This document shows positions 32,264-39,924 of a stretch of 64,000 nucleotides of DNA, piece by piece. The DNA lies in contig CP030158.1 of assembly GCA_003285105.1 (NCBI GenBank), positions 496,001-560,000 of the forward strand, given 5' to 3'. The DNA is from Roseithermus sacchariphilus. Lineage in GTDB: Bacteria > Bacteroidota > Rhodothermia > Rhodothermales > MEBIC09517. A model generated the notes under the pieces. It did no database searches, had not been told where the DNA came from, and saw only the letters and a list, made by a program, of their open reading frames with translations. How positions within the stretch are numbered: the stretch's first letter is position 1; the number at the start of each line of letters is the position of its first letter. Made by a program: the position numbers and the translations under genes.

Positions 32264-33838
32264 ATGCAACACCAACGTACTACGCTTCTGTTGCTTCTGG
32301 CATGCGGCCTGCTGTTGCTCACGGCGGGGCCCGTCCAGGCGCAAGACCTTCCAGACACGATTCATCCGATGAACCGGGCGGCTCTGGAAGCCGGCCCGAC
32401 GGTCGGCAAGGCCATGACCGGCGGGGCTTTCATCGACAACGGCACCATCCAGCTCGGCGTCCACGACGAGGGTCACCTCAATGTCCGCGGCGGCCCACGG
32501 TCGCTCGGCGGCACGACCACCGTCGGCCTGCGCTACCTGCCAACGGGGGCGGAGGCCACGGCCCCCGGCTGCCTCTGCGAAGGCTGGGGGGTGGCGGACG
32601 TGACCAGCGGCGTCTGGGGCGGTGCCGATGAGGCCGCCGGAGGTGTCACCAACCTGATCGTCGAGAGCGCGACGTTCACGGCCTCCACGGCGACGTCCGT
32701 CGTCCGGGTCGGCTCCACGTTCCGCGTCACGCACGCCTACCGCCCCTCACCGGCCACACCGTACCTCTACGAGGTAGAGGTCACCATCGAGAACATATCG
32801 GGCGCCCCGACAGACGTGCGCTACCGCCGCGAGATGGACTGGGACATCGAGCCCACGGCCTTTTCCGAGCGGGTGACGATCGTCGGGGCCGCGGCCTCGA
32901 CCGAGGTGATCCAGGCCACCAACGACGGCTTCGAAAGTCCCAATCCCCTGCTCGTTTCCACCCCGATTGGTGCAGGCGGTGATGCCTCTGCCGCCGACAT
33001 CATCGACTACGGCCCCCTTGATCACGGCGCCAACTTCACGTTCGGCTTCGGCGTGCTCGCCCCGGGCGAGTCCAAGACCTTCAAGACGTACTACGGCGCC
33101 GCCGGGAACGAAGCCGATGCCCTGGCGGCCCTGGCGGCCGTCAGCGCCGAGGTGTATTCGCTGGGCCAGACGCGCACGGCTTCCACTCCCATCGATGGTG
33201 CGCCGAACACGTTCATCTTCGGCTTCGGCGGGGTGGGTGGCACGGCCGTCTGCGACCCGATCGAGTACGAGAACCTCGGCCTCATTGCAGACCGCGTGGC
33301 GGGCCTGCGCCTGACGCATCCCGACGGCATCGCGGAGGTCCAGTTCACCAACCTGGTCAACTTCACCGAGACCAACACGGTCGGCGGCGGCACGGAAGGC
33401 CCGGCGGACACCTGGACCTTCGCCGGCACGCCGGGCCTCGTCGAGTTCGAACTGACGGCCCCGCCGAGCGCCACGTCGGCCACGTATGCCCTCCGGGCCG
33501 TGAGCGAATGCGGCAGCGTGCTCGTGGTCGATCCGCCGTTCGACTTCACCGAAACGGTCGACGCGTTCGCGCTGGACCAGAACTATCCGAACCCGTTCAA
33601 CCCGACCACGCAGATCAGCTTCACGCTGCCCGAAGCCACGTCCGTGCGCCTGGCCGTCTACGACCTGATGGGCCGCGAGGTGAAGACCCTCGTGTCGCAG
33701 ACGATGGAAGCCGGCCAGCACACGGTGACGTGGAACGGCCGCGATGCGGCGGGCCAGCCCGTGGCCAGCGGTACGTACTTCTACCGCATCGAAGCGGGTG
33801 ACTTCGTCGCCATGAAGCAGATGATGCTGCTCAAGTAG
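32264..33838 (+). CDS. Secreted protein with C-terminal T9SS sorting domain
   Basis: A 524-residue exported protein. The signal peptide [21 protein letters not shown] ends before QDLPDT. The body has beta-rich, surface-type sequence ([49 protein letters not shown]) without a recognised enzyme motif. The last 90 residues are a type A Por sorting domain: [57 protein letters not shown] and [21 protein letters not shown]. It is therefore probably secreted and anchored by the type IX system. A stable hairpin follows the stop codon. Confidence 0.87.
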
Positions 33839-33845
33839 CAGGCGT

Positions 33846-33885
33846 GTGCCCGGGCAACGGGAGGCCCCTTCCCGTTGCCCGGCAC
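33846..33885 (+). terminator. Stem-loop after the T9SS cargo gene
   Basis: The arms GTGCCCGGGCAACGGG and CCCGTTGCCCGGCAC pair over 15 bp with one bulged C. The structure ends 40 bp before the small RiPP-like gene. No long U-tract follows, so termination may be partial. Confidence 0.6.
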
Positions 33886-33924
33886 ACATCCTTTGAAGTC
33901 CTCTAACGTCGAGCAAAGAAAGGA

Positions 33925-34086
33925 ATGACCATGCAACCCCAGAAGAATCAACAGATCGACCGGACGCCTTCGCATATCGAAGCCTCTCGGAAGGTCTTTG
34001 CCGCTCCTGCACTCGCGCGCCTCGGAGATGTGCGCGAGATCACGGGCGATGTCACCTTCACCTTCGGCACTGCCCCGATGAGCTGA
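33925..34086 (+). CDS. Candidate RiPP precursor with lasso-type leader peptide
   Basis: A 53-residue peptide. Residues 25-40, FAAPALARLGDVREIT, match the lasso leader motif Y/F-x2-P-x-L-x3-G-x5-T exactly (F25, P28, L30, G34, T40); this motif binds the PqqD-like RRE protein in lasso peptide maturation. After T40 comes GDVTFTFGTAPMS. That tail lacks an Asp or Glu at the expected ring position (7-9), so a classical lasso ring is unlikely and another modification or a decayed core is possible. The ATG at 33925 or 33931 follows AAAGAAAGGA, a good ribosome binding site. No maturation protease, RRE or cyclase gene is in the window. A strong terminator follows, so it is its own transcription unit. 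Confidence 0.65.
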   Translation: MTMQPQKNQQIDRTPSHIEASRKVFAAPALARLGDVREITGDVTFTFGTAPMS

Positions 34087-34133
34087 GCCCTGGACACGGG
34101 CCTGCCCAGGTATGTACCGCAGCGAGTGTTTAA

Positions 34134-34170
34134 AGCGTCGGCGTTCCCCGAGAGCGCCGACGCTTTTTTT
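34134..34170 (+). terminator. Strong Rho-independent terminator after the RiPP-like gene
   Basis: AGCGTCGGCG and CGCCGACGCT form a perfect 10-bp stem with an 11-nt loop, followed by seven or more T residues. It lies 48 bp after the precursor stop codon and isolates that gene from the next one. Confidence 0.93.
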
Positions 34171-34297: not shown

Positions 34298-35968
34298 ATG
34301 AAGAAGATGTCCACCGTGCTGAGGCTCCTGTCCCTTCTCTTGCTCCCGCTTCCCTCGGTCGCTCAGGGACTCCAGGTCGTTTCTTCCATCCCTGAACCGG
34401 GTAACGCCGGCGTGGCCCTGGAGGATACCGTCATTTTTGAGTTCAACCAGATCCTCAACCTGAACACCTCGTCCTGGAACACGGCGGTCGTATTCCCACG
34501 GTCTGCCCTTTCCATACAGAGTGCAGAGGCCTGCGTGGCACCGGATCGATGCATTGCCGGTGATGAACCCCGGTTCATCCGCTACGTCGTAACGCACAAC
34601 GCCGATGTCGATTACACATGGATCTATTTCTTCGCACGCTCCTCTGACGGCCACGTCCTGTCCGAGCCTTATGTCCTCACGTACACGACCGCCGCGACCA
34701 TCAGCCCACATCGCGTCTCCGGTGTGCTTTCGTCCGGCACGCCGGCTTCGCTCCACGCCGGTAACCGCTCGCTGCTGCGCCACCTCGCCCGCTCGATGCA
34801 GGACAACGGCCTCGGCGTCCCTGTTTTTGCGGCAGATTCGATGAAGGCCGCCAAAGCATTCCCGTCCTCCCACGCGCTCCAGGGCGAAGGGGCGCACACC
34901 CGCGTATTGCTGCTCGACGATTTCTGGCTGGACGAACGCTTCTGGGACATCCGCTATGCGACGGCCACCCTGAGTGACTCAGGACCCTTCGAAATCCGGC
35001 ATGTCCGCGATGGCACGTACTGGCCGCTGGCGGTGCGCTACACCGATGCCTCCAGCACAGAGATCGAGGCACTCGGCTTCTACGATGCCAACGCCGATGG
35101 CGAACCGGACCCGATCACCGTATCCGGGGGCCACGTCTCCGGTGTGGACCTCACCCTGGTGCCCTTCACCCTGAGCGATGCCCGGACCCACGTCGACGAA
35201 GCCTATACCGAAGCGGCTGCCGTCGTGGACGATCCTTCCCTGTACATCATCTATTCGATCAGTGGCGCACGCCCCAGCGGCGAAGCGTACACCTGGGGTT
35301 ACCGCTTCCTGTCCGGCACGACGGGCGAGATGGTGACCGTCGTCATCGACCCTCTCGGCCCTACCATCGACACAACGCAGTTACTCAGCTTGATCGAAGA
35401 GGGGATGTCACCCATCCCTGGTGACTTCATCGACTCTCGAACGGCCCTGGAGATCTATAAAACCCACGGTGGTGCGGACTTCCTCGCTCCGTTCCGGCCC
35501 AACAATCTCACCACGACCATCCAGGGAGGCAATTTTCGCTCGCGGACGAAAGATCACAAGGACCGGGTCTTCTGGTGGATCGACGTGGTCGCCCGAACCG
35601 GGTCCCGCACCGAGGCGCTGACGCAACGCATCGACATGACGACGGGGGAGGTGCTCGTGGACACCGACGACTCACCCACAGCCATCCAACCCTCGGAGCA
35701 GCCGCAGATCCACCAGCTGGGTCGGAGCTACCCGAACCCGTTCACCACCCACACAACGATTCCCTTCGTCTTGAACCGGGCCGCCCCCGTACGCCTGGAG
35801 GTCTTCGATCTCCTGGGGCGCCGCATCGACGTGCTCATCGACCAGGTCCTCCCCCCGGGATCTCACGAAGCCACCTGGCACGCTCTCGACCAACCCGCCG
35901 GGCTGTACTACTACCGGCTGAGCGTTGATCAGGAGCCGGCCCTGAACCGGCCCATGATCCGGCGCTGA
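34298..35968 (+). CDS. Secreted Big-like domain protein with T9SS sorting domain
   Basis: A 556-residue exported protein with the signal peptide LRLLSLLLLPLPSVAQG; the ATG at 34298 was chosen for it. Residues about 25-120 resemble a bacterial Ig-like (Big_5) domain (VVSSIPEPGNAGVALEDTVI, WIYFFARSSDGHVL). The middle has DANADGEPDPITVSGGHVSGVDLTL and a region of unknown fold. The C-terminus is a type A Por sorting domain (RSYPNPFTTHTTIPFVL, VRLEVFDLLGRRIDVLI, YYYRLSVDQ). It is probably a cell-surface product of type IX secretion. Function unknown. Confidence 0.83.
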   Translation: MKKMSTVLRLLSLLLLPLPSVAQGLQVVSSIPEPGNAGVALEDTVIFEFNQILNLNTSSWNTAVVFPRSALSIQSAEACVAPDRCIAGDEPRFIRYVVTHNADVDYTWIYFFARSSDGHVLSEPYVLTYTTAATISPHRVSGVLSSGTPASLHAGNRSLLRHLARSMQDNGLGVPVFAADSMKAAKAFPSSHALQGEGAHTRVLLLDDFWLDERFWDIRYATATLSDSGPFEIRHVRDGTYWPLAVRYTDASSTEIEALGFYDANADGEPDPITVSGGHVSGVDLTLVPFTLSDARTHVDEAYTEAAAVVDDPSLYIIYSISGARPSGEAYTWGYRFLSGTTGEMVTVVIDPLGPTIDTTQLLSLIEEGMSPIPGDFIDSRTALEIYKTHGGADFLAPFRPNNLTTTIQGGNFRSRTKDHKDRVFWWIDVVARTGSRTEALTQRIDMTTGEVLVDTDDSPTAIQPSEQPQIHQLGRSYPNPFTTHTTIPFVLNRAAPVRLEVFDLLGRRIDVLIDQVLPPGSHEATWHALDQPAGLYYYRLSVDQEPALNRPMIRR

Positions 35969-36068: not shown

Positions 36069-36172
36069 GGCAAACAAGGGCAAACAACGACGGACGACAA
36101 AACACAGTTTTTGAGGCTTTAGGGCCGTTTTTGTTGTGCAACCTTGTCCGCCGTTGTGCGTCAAAGTGTGGC

Positions 36173-36197
36173 AAAACCTTGCGGATAACTTGCGGAG
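36173..36197. repeat. Left copy of a 25-bp direct repeat (candidate integrase arm site)
   Basis: The segment AAAACCTTGCGGATAAC followed by TTGCGGAG is repeated exactly at 41756-41780. Each copy itself contains TTGCGGA twice, 4 bp apart. The left copy ends 8 bp before the integrase start codon. Position near both element ends suggests arm-type binding sites for the integrase or its directionality factor. Confidence 0.7.
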
Positions 36198-36205
36198 GCC
36201 CTCGG

Positions 36206-37387
36206 ATGGCAGCGAAATACTACCTGGACCGGCCCGGTCCTGACGGCCGTGCAACGGTGCGTCTGGCCCTGCTGCGGGGGCGACAGCAGAAGTGGGTCAA
36301 CCTTCCCGTGCGTGTGGCGCCGCGGGACTGGAACAAGCGCCGGGGCCGCCTGCGTGCCTCGGCCGCCGGCGCCGTGGAGGTCAACGCCCGGCTGGAGCGC
36401 ATCCAGCACCGGGCCGAGGCCCTGCTGCTCGACGGCCTGCCGCTCGACGACGTGGCCGGCGCGATCCGGGAGGACCTGGGCCTTCAAGGGGCGACGCACG
36501 ACCTGATGGGGTTGTTTGAGGAGTGGCTGGAGGTGAAGGCCGTCCGCGTCCGCCCGTCGAGCCTGGAGGTGCTGCGACGCATTCGCCTTCACCTGGAGGC
36601 GTTCCTGCCGCGTGGGGCCACCGTGGCCGTGGTGGATCGCGCCTTCCTCGAACGCTATCAAGCCTTTCTCGCACAGCACGCGGGCCTGTCGCACGCGACG
36701 GCAAACCGGCACGTGAGTTACACCAAGAACTTCCTCAAGTGGCTGCACGGGCGGGGGCTGATCCCGGAGATCCCGGAGGTTGCGCCGCTGCCGGAGAGCC
36801 GCCGCGACGCCGTCTTCCTGACGCCGCACGAGATCAAAGCCTTCGAGGCCGTCGACCTGGCGGACCTGCCGGAGGGCTACGAGCGGGCCCGCTTTCTGCT
36901 GCTGCTGGCCTGCTTCACGGGCCTTCGCGTCTCGGACCTGAAGGAGGGGATGAAGCCGGAGTCGTGGCAGGCGATCGGCCTGGGGGAAGGCGTCTGGTTG
37001 TTGCGGGAGCAAAAAACGGGCGTGTTCCACCGCTGGCCGCTGGTGACGCCCGCCCGCCGGATGCTGCGGGAGCGCCGGGAGGCGGGGGCCCGCACGCCCG
37101 TGCCGCGCATCAGCGAGCAGCGGGCCAACCGGTACCTGAAGGAGATCGCCCGCCGTGCCGGGATCGAGGCGCCCGTCCGCCTGCCCGGCGGCGAGACGCG
37201 CCCGAAGTGGCAGGTGCTGACCCTGCACAGCGGCCGGCGCACCTTCATTACCACCGTCGTTCACGAGGCCGGCACCGGGGCCCTGCTGGGATTGACGCAC
37301 GCCGACCTGGACACCTTGCAGAAGTACGTTGGGAGCTGGGACGATGCCCGCCGCCGGCGCATCGAGCAAGCCTTCAAGGGGATGTGA
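36206..37387 (+). CDS. int: Tyrosine recombinase / integrase
   Basis: A 393-residue phage-type integrase of the Bacteroidota class. Residues 1-75 form an arm-binding domain (KYYLDRPGPDGRATVRLALL, WNKRRGRLRA), about 100-190 a SAM-like core-binding domain (FLERYQAFLAQHAGLSHATANRHVSYTKNFLKWLHG), and the rest the catalytic domain. Active-site residues are visible as Arg in TGLRVSDL (about 241), His and Arg in LHSGRRTF (about 340) and Tyr in LQKYVGS (about 374). All look intact, so the element may still be mobile. The ATG at 36206 follows GGAGGCCC. It lies beside the left attachment site. Confidence 0.94.
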   Translation: MAAKYYLDRPGPDGRATVRLALLRGRQQKWVNLPVRVAPRDWNKRRGRLRASAAGAVEVNARLERIQHRAEALLLDGLPLDDVAGAIREDLGLQGATHDLMGLFEEWLEVKAVRVRPSSLEVLRRIRLHLEAFLPRGATVAVVDRAFLERYQAFLAQHAGLSHATANRHVSYTKNFLKWLHGRGLIPEIPEVAPLPESRRDAVFLTPHEIKAFEAVDLADLPEGYERARFLLLLACFTGLRVSDLKEGMKPESWQAIGLGEGVWLLREQKTGVFHRWPLVTPARRMLRERREAGARTPVPRISEQRANRYLKEIARRAGIEAPVRLPGGETRPKWQVLTLHSGRRTFITTVVHEAGTGALLGLTHADLDTLQKYVGSWDDARRRRIEQAFKGM

Positions 37388-37723
37388 GTTGCCGTTATTA
37401 CCCCGCTAGAGGCGGCTGTTATTGCCCCTCCGTTGTGGATACCTGTTGCCCCACAGGGTGAAAATGTGGTCTTAAGTGCTGAAAGCCGCGTTGGGGTAGT
37501 GCGTGGGTGTGTGGAGAACTGCGCGGGGCGCACCCCTTGTGTGTACGCGACCGAACACGTATTTTATCTGTGTCGCCCCGGCGGCTGGTTGGCAGGCATA
37601 TCGGGGTGGCGAAAAACGAGGTGACAGCGATGCCACAGGGATTTTTAATCGCCTGGGCCGGTCACCTTGTCTGTCTCTTGTTTTGGGGCTACTGGGGGTC
37701 GGCCCAGCCCAGACAAGGGACAC
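37388..37723. other. Intergenic region between integrase and HTH gene
   Basis: About 336 bp, containing one small candidate gene at its right end (37630-37731) and otherwise no coding signal. It is less GC-rich than the flanking genes and probably holds the promoter of the replication operon. Confidence 0.4.
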
Positions 37724-37731
37724 ATGTCTGA
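37630..37731 (+). CDS. Candidate small membrane or leader peptide
   Basis: A 33-codon frame, MPQGFLIAWAGHLVCLLFWG and 13 more residues, preceded by GAGGTG 7 nt upstream. Residues 5-24 are hydrophobic enough for a single membrane span. Its stop codon lies 5 bp past the start of the HTH gene, so translation may be coupled. It could also be a chance frame. Confidence 0.3.
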   Translation: MPQGFLIAWAGHLVCLLFWGYWGSAQPRQGTHV

Positions 37732-37945
37732 GCACATCTCCCGGGCGCCTGCCGCGCCCGCCATCCGTGACCGGCTCCTGACCACCGACGAGGTCTGCCG
37801 GCTGCTCGCCATCTCCCGCTCGACACTCCACCAGCTCCGCCGCCGGGGCGTGATCGAGGCCGTCATCGTCGGAACCCGAACGGTCCGTTTTCGCGCCAGC
37901 GACATCGAGCGTCTGATCGAGCACGGCGCGGAGGTGGAGCGATGA
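37724..37945 (+). CDS. Excisionase-like helix-turn-helix (MerR/HTH_17) protein
   Basis: A 73-residue DNA-binding protein. LLTTDEVCRLLAISRSTLHQLRRRGVIEAVIVGTRTVRFRASDIERLI is the HTH_17 domain found in excisionases and small phage regulators. The ATG at 37724 has AAGGGA 5 nt upstream. Its stop overlaps the start of the primase-helicase gene (ATGA), so the two are translated as a unit. It could be the directionality factor of the integrase or the regulator of replication. Confidence 0.85.
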   Translation: MSEHISRAPAAPAIRDRLLTTDEVCRLLAISRSTLHQLRRRGVIEAVIVGTRTVRFRASDIERLIEHGAEVER

Positions 37946-39924
37946 CCGTCGAGGACCTGCTGCGCCGTCTCCACGGCGTGCGTCGATCCGGGAGCGGCTA
38001 CGTGGCCCACTGCCCGGCGCACAGGGACCGCCGGCCGTCGCTATCCGTATCGGAGGGCGAGGACGGCCGGGTCCTGCTCCATTGTCACGCCGGCTGCTCC
38101 ACGGAGGCCGTCGTGGGGGCCCTGGGGCTGCGTCTGGCCGACCTGATGCCGGAGCCGGCCGGTGACGGACGATCCGGCCGGGAGCCCGCACCGCCGCCCG
38201 TCGAGGTCGCCCGCTACACCTACCGCGACGAGGAGGGCCGGCCGCTCTATCAGGTGCGCCGCTACCAGCCCAAAACGTTCCGCCAGTACCGCCGCGAGGG
38301 CGACCGCTGGGTGCCGGGCCTGGGGGAGACGCGCCGCGTGCTCTACCGGCTGCCCGAGGTCATCGAGGCCGCCCGCGAGGGGCGCGTCGTCATCGTCGTC
38401 GAGGGCGAGAAGGACGCCGACGTCCTGGCCGACCTTGACTTCGTGGCCACGACCTGCGCGATGGGCGCGGGGGCCTGGCGGCCGGAGTACACCGAGGTCC
38501 TGCGCGGGGCGCACGTTGTCATCCTGCCCGACAACGACGAGCCCGGCCGCCGGCACGCCGCCGAGGTGGCCCGGGCCGTCTACGACGTGGCCCGGAGTGT
38601 CCGCATCGTCGAGCTACCCGGCCTGCCCGAGAAAGGCGATGTCTCCGACTGGCTCGGTGCCGGCCACCTGCCGGCGGACCTGCGCCGCGTCATCCGAAAT
38701 ACGCCGCCGCTGGAGGCGCCACCAGAGCCGCCGTCTGAGCCGCCTGAGCGGCCACAGGAGACGCGATCTCCAGAGAGCCGACCCGATACCCGGGCGGTGG
38801 CCGTGCGCGTCGCTGACGTCGAGCGAGAGGCCATCCGCTGGCTCTGGCCGGGGCGTCTGGCCCTGGGGAAGCTCGCCATCCTCGACGGCGATCCCGGCCT
38901 CGGCAAATCGACCTTGTACTGCGACCTGGCCGCCCGCATCACGACGGGGCGGACGTGGCCTGACGCACCCGACGCACCGCCCGGTGAGCCGGCCGCTGTC
39001 GTCATCGTCACCTGCGAGGACGGCATCGCCGACACCATCCGCCCGCGCCTGGAGGAGGCCGGGGCCGACCTGACCCGCGTCCACGTCATCCAGGCCGTCC
39101 GGGAGGGCGAGGACCTGACCGTGCCGCGCCTGCCCGACCACATCGACGCCATCGAGGCCGTGGTCCGGGAGACGGGCGCCGCCCTGCTCGTCGTCGATCC
39201 GATCATGGCCCACCTGGGCGACCGCATCAACGCCCACCGGGACGCCGACGTCCGCCGCGCCCTGACGCCGCTTGCCCTGCTCTGTGAACGCTGCGGCTGC
39301 GCCGGTCTGGTCGTCCGCCATCTCAACAAGATGCCCGGCGGGGACCCGCTCTATCGTGGCGGTGGCTCCATCGGCATCATCGGGCAGGCCCGCATCGGGC
39401 TCCTGCTCGCATCGCACCCGGAGCACGAGACGGCCGACGGCGTGCGCGTGCTGGCCACGACAAAGGCGAATGTGGGGGCGTGGCGCCCGTCGCTGGTGCT
39501 GCGCCTGGCCGGCAGCGAGCGCGACCCGGATACTGCGGTGATCCGCTGGGAGGGGACGACGCCGCTCACGGCCCGCGCCCTGCTGGCCCGCCCGAAGGCG
39601 GAGCGACCGCGTGACGAGGCCGCCGACTGGCTCCGGGAGCGCCTGACATCGGCCGCCGACCCGGTGCCGGCCCGCGACCTGTTCGCCGAGGCCGAGGCCC
39701 GGGGCATCAGCGAGATCACACTACGCCGCGCCAGGAAAAGTCTCGGTGTTGTCGTCGAGCAGGTGCCGCCGAGGCCCGGGGGGACGTGGTACTGGAGCCT
39801 GCCGGGAGCCGGTGCGTCACACATATGTTCGGACAATGTGTTCGACGTCCCGGAGGCCCCAGATGATCAGTTTTACCAAAGTGATCATCTGGGAGACGGC
39901 GCAGACGACGAAGTGCCCTTCTAG
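37942..39924 (+). CDS. Primase-helicase replication protein (CHC2-like zinc finger, Toprim, RepA-type ATPase)
   Basis: A 660-residue protein. The N-terminus has a CHC2-like zinc-binding module: Cys24 and His27 in AHCPAHRDRRPSL, with Cys48 and Cys52 in LLHCHAGC. A Toprim-like domain follows (VVIVVEGEKDADVLADL, VVILPDNDEPGRRHA). After a Pro/Glu-rich linker (about 255-280) an AAA_25/RepA helicase domain starts: Walker A GDPGLGKSTL near 316-325, Walker B ALLVVDPIMAHLGD near 415, and LVVRHLNKMPGGDPLYRGGGSIGI. Such fusions initiate replication of satellites, phages and plasmids. Its last 70 bp carry part of the GATC-rich repeat cluster. Confidence 0.9.
   Translation: MTVEDLLRRLHGVRRSGSGYVAHCPAHRDRRPSLSVSEGEDGRVLLHCHAGCSTEAVVGALGLRLADLMPEPAGDGRSGREPAPPPVEVARYTYRDEEGRPLYQVRRYQPKTFRQYRREGDRWVPGLGETRRVLYRLPEVIEAAREGRVVIVVEGEKDADVLADLDFVATTCAMGAGAWRPEYTEVLRGAHVVILPDNDEPGRRHAAEVARAVYDVARSVRIVELPGLPEKGDVSDWLGAGHLPADLRRVIRNTPPLEAPPEPPSEPPERPQETRSPESRPDTRAVAVRVADVEREAIRWLWPGRLALGKLAILDGDPGLGKSTLYCDLAARITTGRTWPDAPDAPPGEPAAVVIVTCEDGIADTIRPRLEEAGADLTRVHVIQAVREGEDLTVPRLPDHIDAIEAVVRETGAALLVVDPIMAHLGDRINAHRDADVRRALTPLALLCERCGCAGLVVRHLNKMPGGDPLYRGGGSIGIIGQARIGLLLASHPEHETADGVRVLATTKANVGAWRPSLVLRLAGSERDPDTAVIRWEGTTPLTARALLARPKAERPRDEAADWLRERLTSAADPVPARDLFAEAEARGISEITLRRARKSLGVVVEQVPPRPGGTWYWSLPGAGASHICSDNVFDVPEAPDDQFYQSDHLGDGADDEVPF

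Follow-up and report, generated by a model that had tools for sequence, protein, structure and literature searches.

The closest described counterparts of the peptide considered here are lasso precursors, with which it shares the leader pattern Y/F..P.L...G.....T (NCBIfam NF033521, lasso_leader_L3, and NF033528, lasso_cyano), an expected cut one residue after T(-2) and the predicted use of an RRE and a B2 protease. In contrast to these precursors, the peptide family lacks the ring-forming D/E, carries conserved rather than variable cores of 6-12 residues that feature F-x-F and often end in Ser, and occurs in linked loci that contain no cyclase and adjoin T9SS cargo genes; judged by these features, the peptide falls outside the lasso peptides. 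Phosphorylated lasso systems of the paeninodin/pseudomycoidin type (PadeK, ThcoK, PsmK, PsmN) likewise place an HprK-like kinase and a nucleotidyltransferase-like protein beside the RRE and B2, and their precursors also often end in Ser, but the systems around the present peptide have neither a lasso cyclase nor a cyclisable core. In phosphorylated lasso peptides, the kinases work on the linear precursor, PadeK modifying the C-terminal Ser of paeninodin whereas the site in BsfA is Ser3, the B1/RRE speeds phosphorylation and assists B2 cleavage, and PsmN, a nucleotidyltransferase homologue, acts on the phosphorylated Ser (PMC9266682, PMC10368454). The HPr-rel-A system (NCBIfam TIGR04352/TIGR04353) similarly brings together a PqqD-like protein and an HprK-related kinase, yet the proteins found here score below its cut-offs (31.9 against 35, and 31.8-40.6 against 200), and the B2 protease and the linkage to T9SS cargo are additional. 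T9SS type A cargo (TIGR04183) furnishes a further comparison: both proteins flanking the peptide belong to it, and the 51-residue peptide itself is without the C-terminal sorting domain (CTD). A search of a literature collection with few subscription journals returned no link between a T9SS cargo and a RiPP precursor, and no paper describing systems of this kind from either Rhodothermus or Salinibacter.

The window, a stretch of 64,000 nucleotides, comes from the complete 4.81 Mb chromosome of Roseithermus sacchariphilus. It contains a small gene that probably encodes the precursor from which a short, linear RiPP-like peptide is made, as part of a cyclase-free offshoot of the lasso pathways tied to T9SS cargo. 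As delineated from the sequence, the open reading frame list and HMM searches, the peptide gene occupies 33931..34086 on the forward strand and encodes 51 residues, or 53 if translation begins at the ATG at 33925. The Shine-Dalgarno element AAAGGA (33919..33924, forward strand) lies 6 nt before the second ATG at 33931, a spacing that fits this start and makes the 51-residue form the likely product, so the good ribosome binding site of an earlier, sequence-only reading stands but suits the second start codon. The predicted layout of this product is MQPQKNQQIDRTPSHIEASRKV-FAAPALARLGDVREIT-G/DVTFTFGTAPMS. Downstream, an intrinsic terminator (34132..34170, forward strand) combines a hairpin at 34132-34166 (-27.3 kcal/mol, z -6.1) with a following T run, in agreement with the strong terminator previously proposed for the gene, and is absent from the list of a simple terminator scan. 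A second strong hairpin, which has no T run, lies between the stop codon of the upstream cargo gene and the peptide (about 33840..33890, forward strand; -41 kcal/mol, z -6.9). The peptide has no Pfam match, and a plain protein search across the order returns no close relative, its second match (in G106) sitting within a long open frame. This result and the small size of the gene might suggest a chance reading frame, an explanation with negligible probability that is ruled out by profile matches in several genera, purifying selection, the ribosome site and the terminator.

The upstream flanking gene (32264..33838, forward strand) encodes a T9SS type A cargo of 524 residues that matches TIGR04183 with 39.6 bits against a cut-off of 23. 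Its CTD is preceded by a domain of about 105 residues with two Cys (33242..33553, forward strand), which also occurs in cargos preceding such peptides in other genera. Order-wide, an alignment of this pre-CTD domain (A4), built partly from the window's own sequence and therefore matching here with E 1.6e-35, retrieves 18 genes from 12 genomes; 14 of these genes are followed by a peptide, and four have none downstream. The downstream gene (34298..35968, forward strand) encodes a second cargo, with 27.7 bits against the same cut-off, which bears out the placement between two T9SS cargo genes. It belongs to the family of the third gene of the corresponding cargo-peptide-cargo triads in Salinibacter, in G018 and in its own paralogous locus, with 35-37% identity to these homologues over its length, and its Rhodothermus homologue lies upstream of a cargo-peptide pair. 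Scanning contigs with this protein yields four loci, namely one in Salinibacter altiplanensis (G061), two in Rhodothermus MAGs and one weak match. The label 'SbsA-like' reflects only its Ig-like start, and its AlphaFold model is unusable (pLDDT 43). Immediately downstream of the triad, the interval 36131-39924 looks, when read by eye only, like an integrated element, with an ORF resembling a tyrosine recombinase, a small helix-turn-helix-like ORF and a primase/AAA-like ORF.

The leader motif FAAPALARLGDVREIT (33997..34044, forward strand) presents F-17, P-14, L-12, G-8 and T-2, with F at 33997 and T at 34042-34044, and thus reproduces in sequence the exact lasso spacing F..P.L...G.....T. Against lasso_leader_L3 the peptide scores 18.8-19.0 bits (hmmscan / six-frame) at a cut-off of 19, and its ORF is the top six-frame match of the genome to this model (E 0.013). 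Moreover, a 24-row leader HMM finds exactly three matches in the genome (E 2e-8, 6.5e-7 and 7.7e-7, the next being 1.05); as all three leaders are rows of the HMM, these E-values are flattering and it is the gap to the next match that counts. The three correspond to the precursor of the genome's lasso cluster, the peptide ORF, and FLAPRIESLGSLDRIT/ANTPGFSGFGVLPAPTP at 4,087 kb, again immediately downstream of a T9SS cargo gene and at a distance of 5 kb from the genome's second RRE. As a bare DNA pattern, the motif occurs 9 times against 6 in the reversed control, which is chance level, so the significance of the leader rests on the HMMs and on context. The lasso-type leader claimed by the sequence-only reading is thereby confirmed, and the suggested search for further precursors of this kind has yielded three leaders with this HMM.

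Cleavage between T-G and D would release the predicted core DVTFTFGTAPMS (34048..34083, forward strand), as aligned with the cores of its relatives. With T at -2, this core has no D/E at positions 7-9, as previously stated, and the other register, GDVTFTFGTAPMS, has none at 7, 8 or 9 either; a C-terminal Ser is present in DVTFTFGTAPMS. The Rhodothermus cores are AGGFVFS (two), GGGFRFS, GGSFNFS (two), TGVFVFS, TGVFSFS and SGSFDFS, those of Salinibacter are GDRHHFESTAS and GDRHFFESTAS, and further family cores read AERMFTFGIPSS and QDVEISGFTVQGTGT, in addition to AGTFTFGVAAAS in the paralogous triad of the same genome (213 kb). Leader and core are both conserved across the family, the core following the pattern x-G/D-x-F-x-F...S. 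The last residue varies, however, with some relatives ending in LPAPTP, GTGT, APSR or LWDKK, so that phosphorylation may not be the common step.

Elsewhere on the chromosome, the search for RRE/PqqD, B2 and asparagine-synthetase-like genes proposed earlier finds all three types. Two PqqD-like RREs score 88 and 72 bits, so a genome devoid of RRE-containing proteins, the case that the earlier reading had set against itself, is not what is encountered here. The type-1 RRE lies in a lasso cluster (L008 6820-13724; about 2,004.8-2,011.7 kb) together with a cyclase (2,006 kb; NF033535, 584 bits, cut-off 525), a precursor, an HprK-like kinase whose gene carries LHGG, GAGKST and SDD, an ABC transporter and an NTP_transf_5 gene, and no B2 gene is seen among the genes of this cluster at 2,005 kb. 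Among the loci examined, the lasso cluster is the only one of this genome in which HprK-like kinase and NTP-transferase genes are seen. The second RRE (RRE2) is located at 4,082 kb, and a stand-alone B2 protease at 3,727 kb (NF033537, 58.7 bits, cut-off 33) retains the Cys and the His/Asp of GHAWVD. The peptide, RRE2 and B2 are therefore megabases apart, and no asparagine-synthetase-like cyclase is present at the peptide locus, in line with the earlier statement that maturation genes are not nearby. The description of the precursor as an orphan holds in so far as the locus is free of enzymes, but not otherwise, as the peptide is a member of a conserved family with a paralogous triad in the same genome. 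The lasso-cluster precursor, MKQYDTPRLIEYGEVHSLTFAYGINGAED..., has two acids, E8 and D9, in a core that is unusually long at about 55 residues after the leader.

The presence of a cyclase and a type-1 RRE in the genome, together with the exact leader, would be compatible with a true lasso precursor located outside its cluster and cyclised in trans by the enzymes at 2,005 kb, and some T9SS-adjacent precursors elsewhere do have D/E at core positions 7-9 (e.g., L166 and L169). The missing acid in the present core argues against such a product, as do the cores of its relatives, which at 6-7 residues (GGFVFS) are too short for a ring and a tail, and the linked enzyme sets without a cyclase. Given the missing acid and the short core, we reject a true lasso product, which by sequence is already nearly excluded and to which we assign only a very small probability.

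Applied to 114 genomes from the order, the leader HMM identifies 72 places in 36 genomes. When the 63 leaders within the fetched loci of other genomes are considered, eight lie no more than 210 nt downstream of a gene with a T9SS sorting domain, compared with 0.28 expected from the density of T9SS genes. These T9SS-adjacent leaders, with those of the own genome included, are enriched for the absence of a cyclase within 9 kb (p 2e-4), for cores of at most 17 residues (p 2e-6) and for F at the first motif position (p 5e-6). The cargo-peptide-cargo triad occurs twice in the own genome (the second at 212-215 kb), in two Salinibacter species and in G018, and the cargo-peptide pair is present in six Rhodothermus genomes; the T9SS neighbours that the sequence-only reading had mentioned in passing are the constant partner of the family. 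In 245 genomes of the class, a peptide HMM of 14 rows (A5) returns the family members with E <1e-11 and, beyond its own rows, one more strong match (G076, E 7e-6) that also follows a pre-CTD cargo. Some of the counts are not independent, since peptide and cargo searches partly share seed sequences and close species are non-independent samples. As a separate observation, near-identical lasso precursors with the core ATLGDPFTGDQSFDVDGN... are scattered singly, with no enzymes nearby, in G032 and G033 (L129, L136, L144, L147, L151, L172), and PqqD was not found in G033.

The Rhodothermus copies of the peptide are under purifying selection, with pN/pS in five species of 0.09 in the leader region and 0.44 in the core, and the core AGGFVFS is identical in two species, whose codons for it differ only synonymously. 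The most conserved positions of the family are the F..P.L part, whose spacing is kept across genera, and T(-2); some relatives have lost Gly(-8), and T(-2) is also not universal. Conservation had been expected for the leader motif only, and this expectation stands for the F..P.L part and T(-2), which are indeed the most constrained, but fails for the core, which is conserved too. Such whole-peptide conservation weakens the view that this is an ordinary orphan precursor whose core is variable. It does not weaken an RRE-dependent reading, because conservation peaks at F..P.L and T(-2) and a dedicated RRE/B2/kinase set accompanies the family.

The stronger constraint on the leader than on the core, the inconstancy of T(-2) and Gly(-8), the gene's own terminator and the strong hairpin that separates it from the cargo gene could all be accommodated by an unprocessed peptide, acting through its RRE-binding motif as a decoy or regulator that titrates RRE, B2 and kinase, or as a peptide that feeds back on the expression of T9SS cargo. 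The conserved core (F-x-F, the C-terminal Ser and the identical AGGFVFS of two species) and the B2 protease genes within the same loci in G018, G055, G056 and G095 make such a role unlikely.

Linked enzyme loci occur in other genomes. Rhodothermus genomes carry, besides their lasso cluster, a separate operon of NTP_transf_5, B2, HprK-like and RRE genes in this order and without a cyclase. The G018 locus runs cargo, peptide, SbsA-like cargo, B2 and the start of a kinase gene at the contig end, with the RRE upstream on the other strand; in G055 and G056 the order is cargo, peptide, HprK, RRE, B2 and NTP; in G095 it is cargo, peptide, HprK, NTP, RRE and B2; and in G061 and G062 HprK and RRE genes come after the triad. 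A cyclase is absent from the linked loci of G018, G051, G052, G055, G056 and G095 and from the Rhodothermus operons. Phylogenetically, the RRE2 of the own genome falls in a clade of 13 (support 100/99), 12 of which have no cyclase nearby, the thirteenth (G062) having both its triad and a lasso cluster as neighbours, and the stand-alone B2 falls in a clade of nine (100/100) that are all cyclase-less. In the Rhodothermus genome G038, which has neither peptide nor cargo, the HprK gene is lost and the NTP gene broken; RRE2 and B2 are kept and may still be needed by its B2-less lasso cluster.

Type-2 RREs, called by HMM contrast against cluster RREs with G035 and G061 outside the training set, are found in 19 of the 114 genomes, in a survey that covered most of the formerly unclassified RREs. 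All 14 peptide-family genomes are among these, the peptides of G018 and G051 being weak matches read in context, and the co-occurrence has p 4e-14 by genome, 1e-6 by genus and 8e-5 among RRE-bearing genera, with phylogeny ignored. In the peptide genomes these RREs typically lie in B2/HprK-kinase/nucleotidyltransferase loci without a cyclase. The retention of a type-2 RRE in all 14 genomes, usually with the kinase and often with B2, and of the F-P-L spacing across genera, bears on the idea that the product is a small protein tied to T9SS cargo, chaperone-like or an assembly factor, whose lasso-leader likeness is a disused mark of common descent. The cargo gene is the most constant partner in every genus, as this idea would predict, but the retained enzymes and spacing render it improbable.

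Several neighbouring systems were observed alongside the family. In G095 and G091, cyclase-less sets (L142, L158, L260) accompany a different conserved core, (Q/K)AEYGGLD...SLFAMASPG..... In G034, a type-2-like RRE and HprK stand beside a weak leader peptide, KVFVVPRIQRHQKLSTLT/FAASMPVDPCSPLSISSTLCAYTP (L287 5374-5433), and in G021 (L281, L299) two contigs bear arrays of weak PqqD-like domains, at least eight altogether, which on one of the contigs have HprK-like neighbours.

What the DNA itself shows is a conserved family of precursors that is recurrently linked to T9SS cargo, together with the presence of the enzymes and the co-occurrence with one RRE clade; from this we infer how these enzymes may act on the peptide, where it may be cut, whether it is phosphorylated and exported, and what role it may serve. 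The type-2 PqqD-like RRE, encoded in this genome at 4,082 kb, would bind F(-17)-P(-14)-L(-12), after which an HprK-like kinase would phosphorylate the core, most likely at the C-terminal Ser, and in some relatives the nucleotidyltransferase-like protein would add to that phosphate. The B2 cysteine protease (stand-alone, 3,727 kb) would then cut one residue after T(-2), to give DVTFTFGTAPMS, perhaps phosphorylated, in the present case and G-x-F-x-F-S in Rhodothermus. Ring formation would be impossible and the product linear, which fits the occurrence of the same enzyme types without a cyclase and of precursors without a ring acid. Counting against this path, the Y-P-L motif of BsfA is dispensable for phosphorylation and largely so for cleavage, and the BsfA kinase targets Ser3 rather than a C-terminal Ser; the wide separation of peptide, RRE2 and B2 on this chromosome and the variable last residue of the relatives weigh in the same direction. 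The peptide would probably be exported and act with or on the T9SS-exported neighbour proteins, the steady gene order suggesting that the mature peptide meets the cargo at the cell surface.

Collectively, the original proposal of a RiPP-type precursor that has a lasso leader, yields a non-lasso product and relies on maturation enzymes acting in trans is supported. We advance more tentatively, at somewhat less than an even chance, the wider proposal that the type-2 RRE, B2, the HprK-like kinase and the nucleotidyltransferase constitute a cyclase-free lasso branch whose products are short, linear, aromatic peptides, decorated at the C-terminal Ser and dedicated to T9SS surface proteins. In that case a RiPP-type system would for the first time be seen coupled to type IX secretion. 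Genome mining for lasso peptides generally takes the cyclase and the ring acid as its point of departure and would miss such precursors and cyclase-less enzyme sets, and the cyclase-free reading may explain stand-alone lasso B2, RRE and HprK-like genes. If true, RRE, B2 and kinase would form a reusable module for linear products, physically linked to outer-surface proteins, and would provide a testable first clue to the role of such peptides in Rhodothermales.
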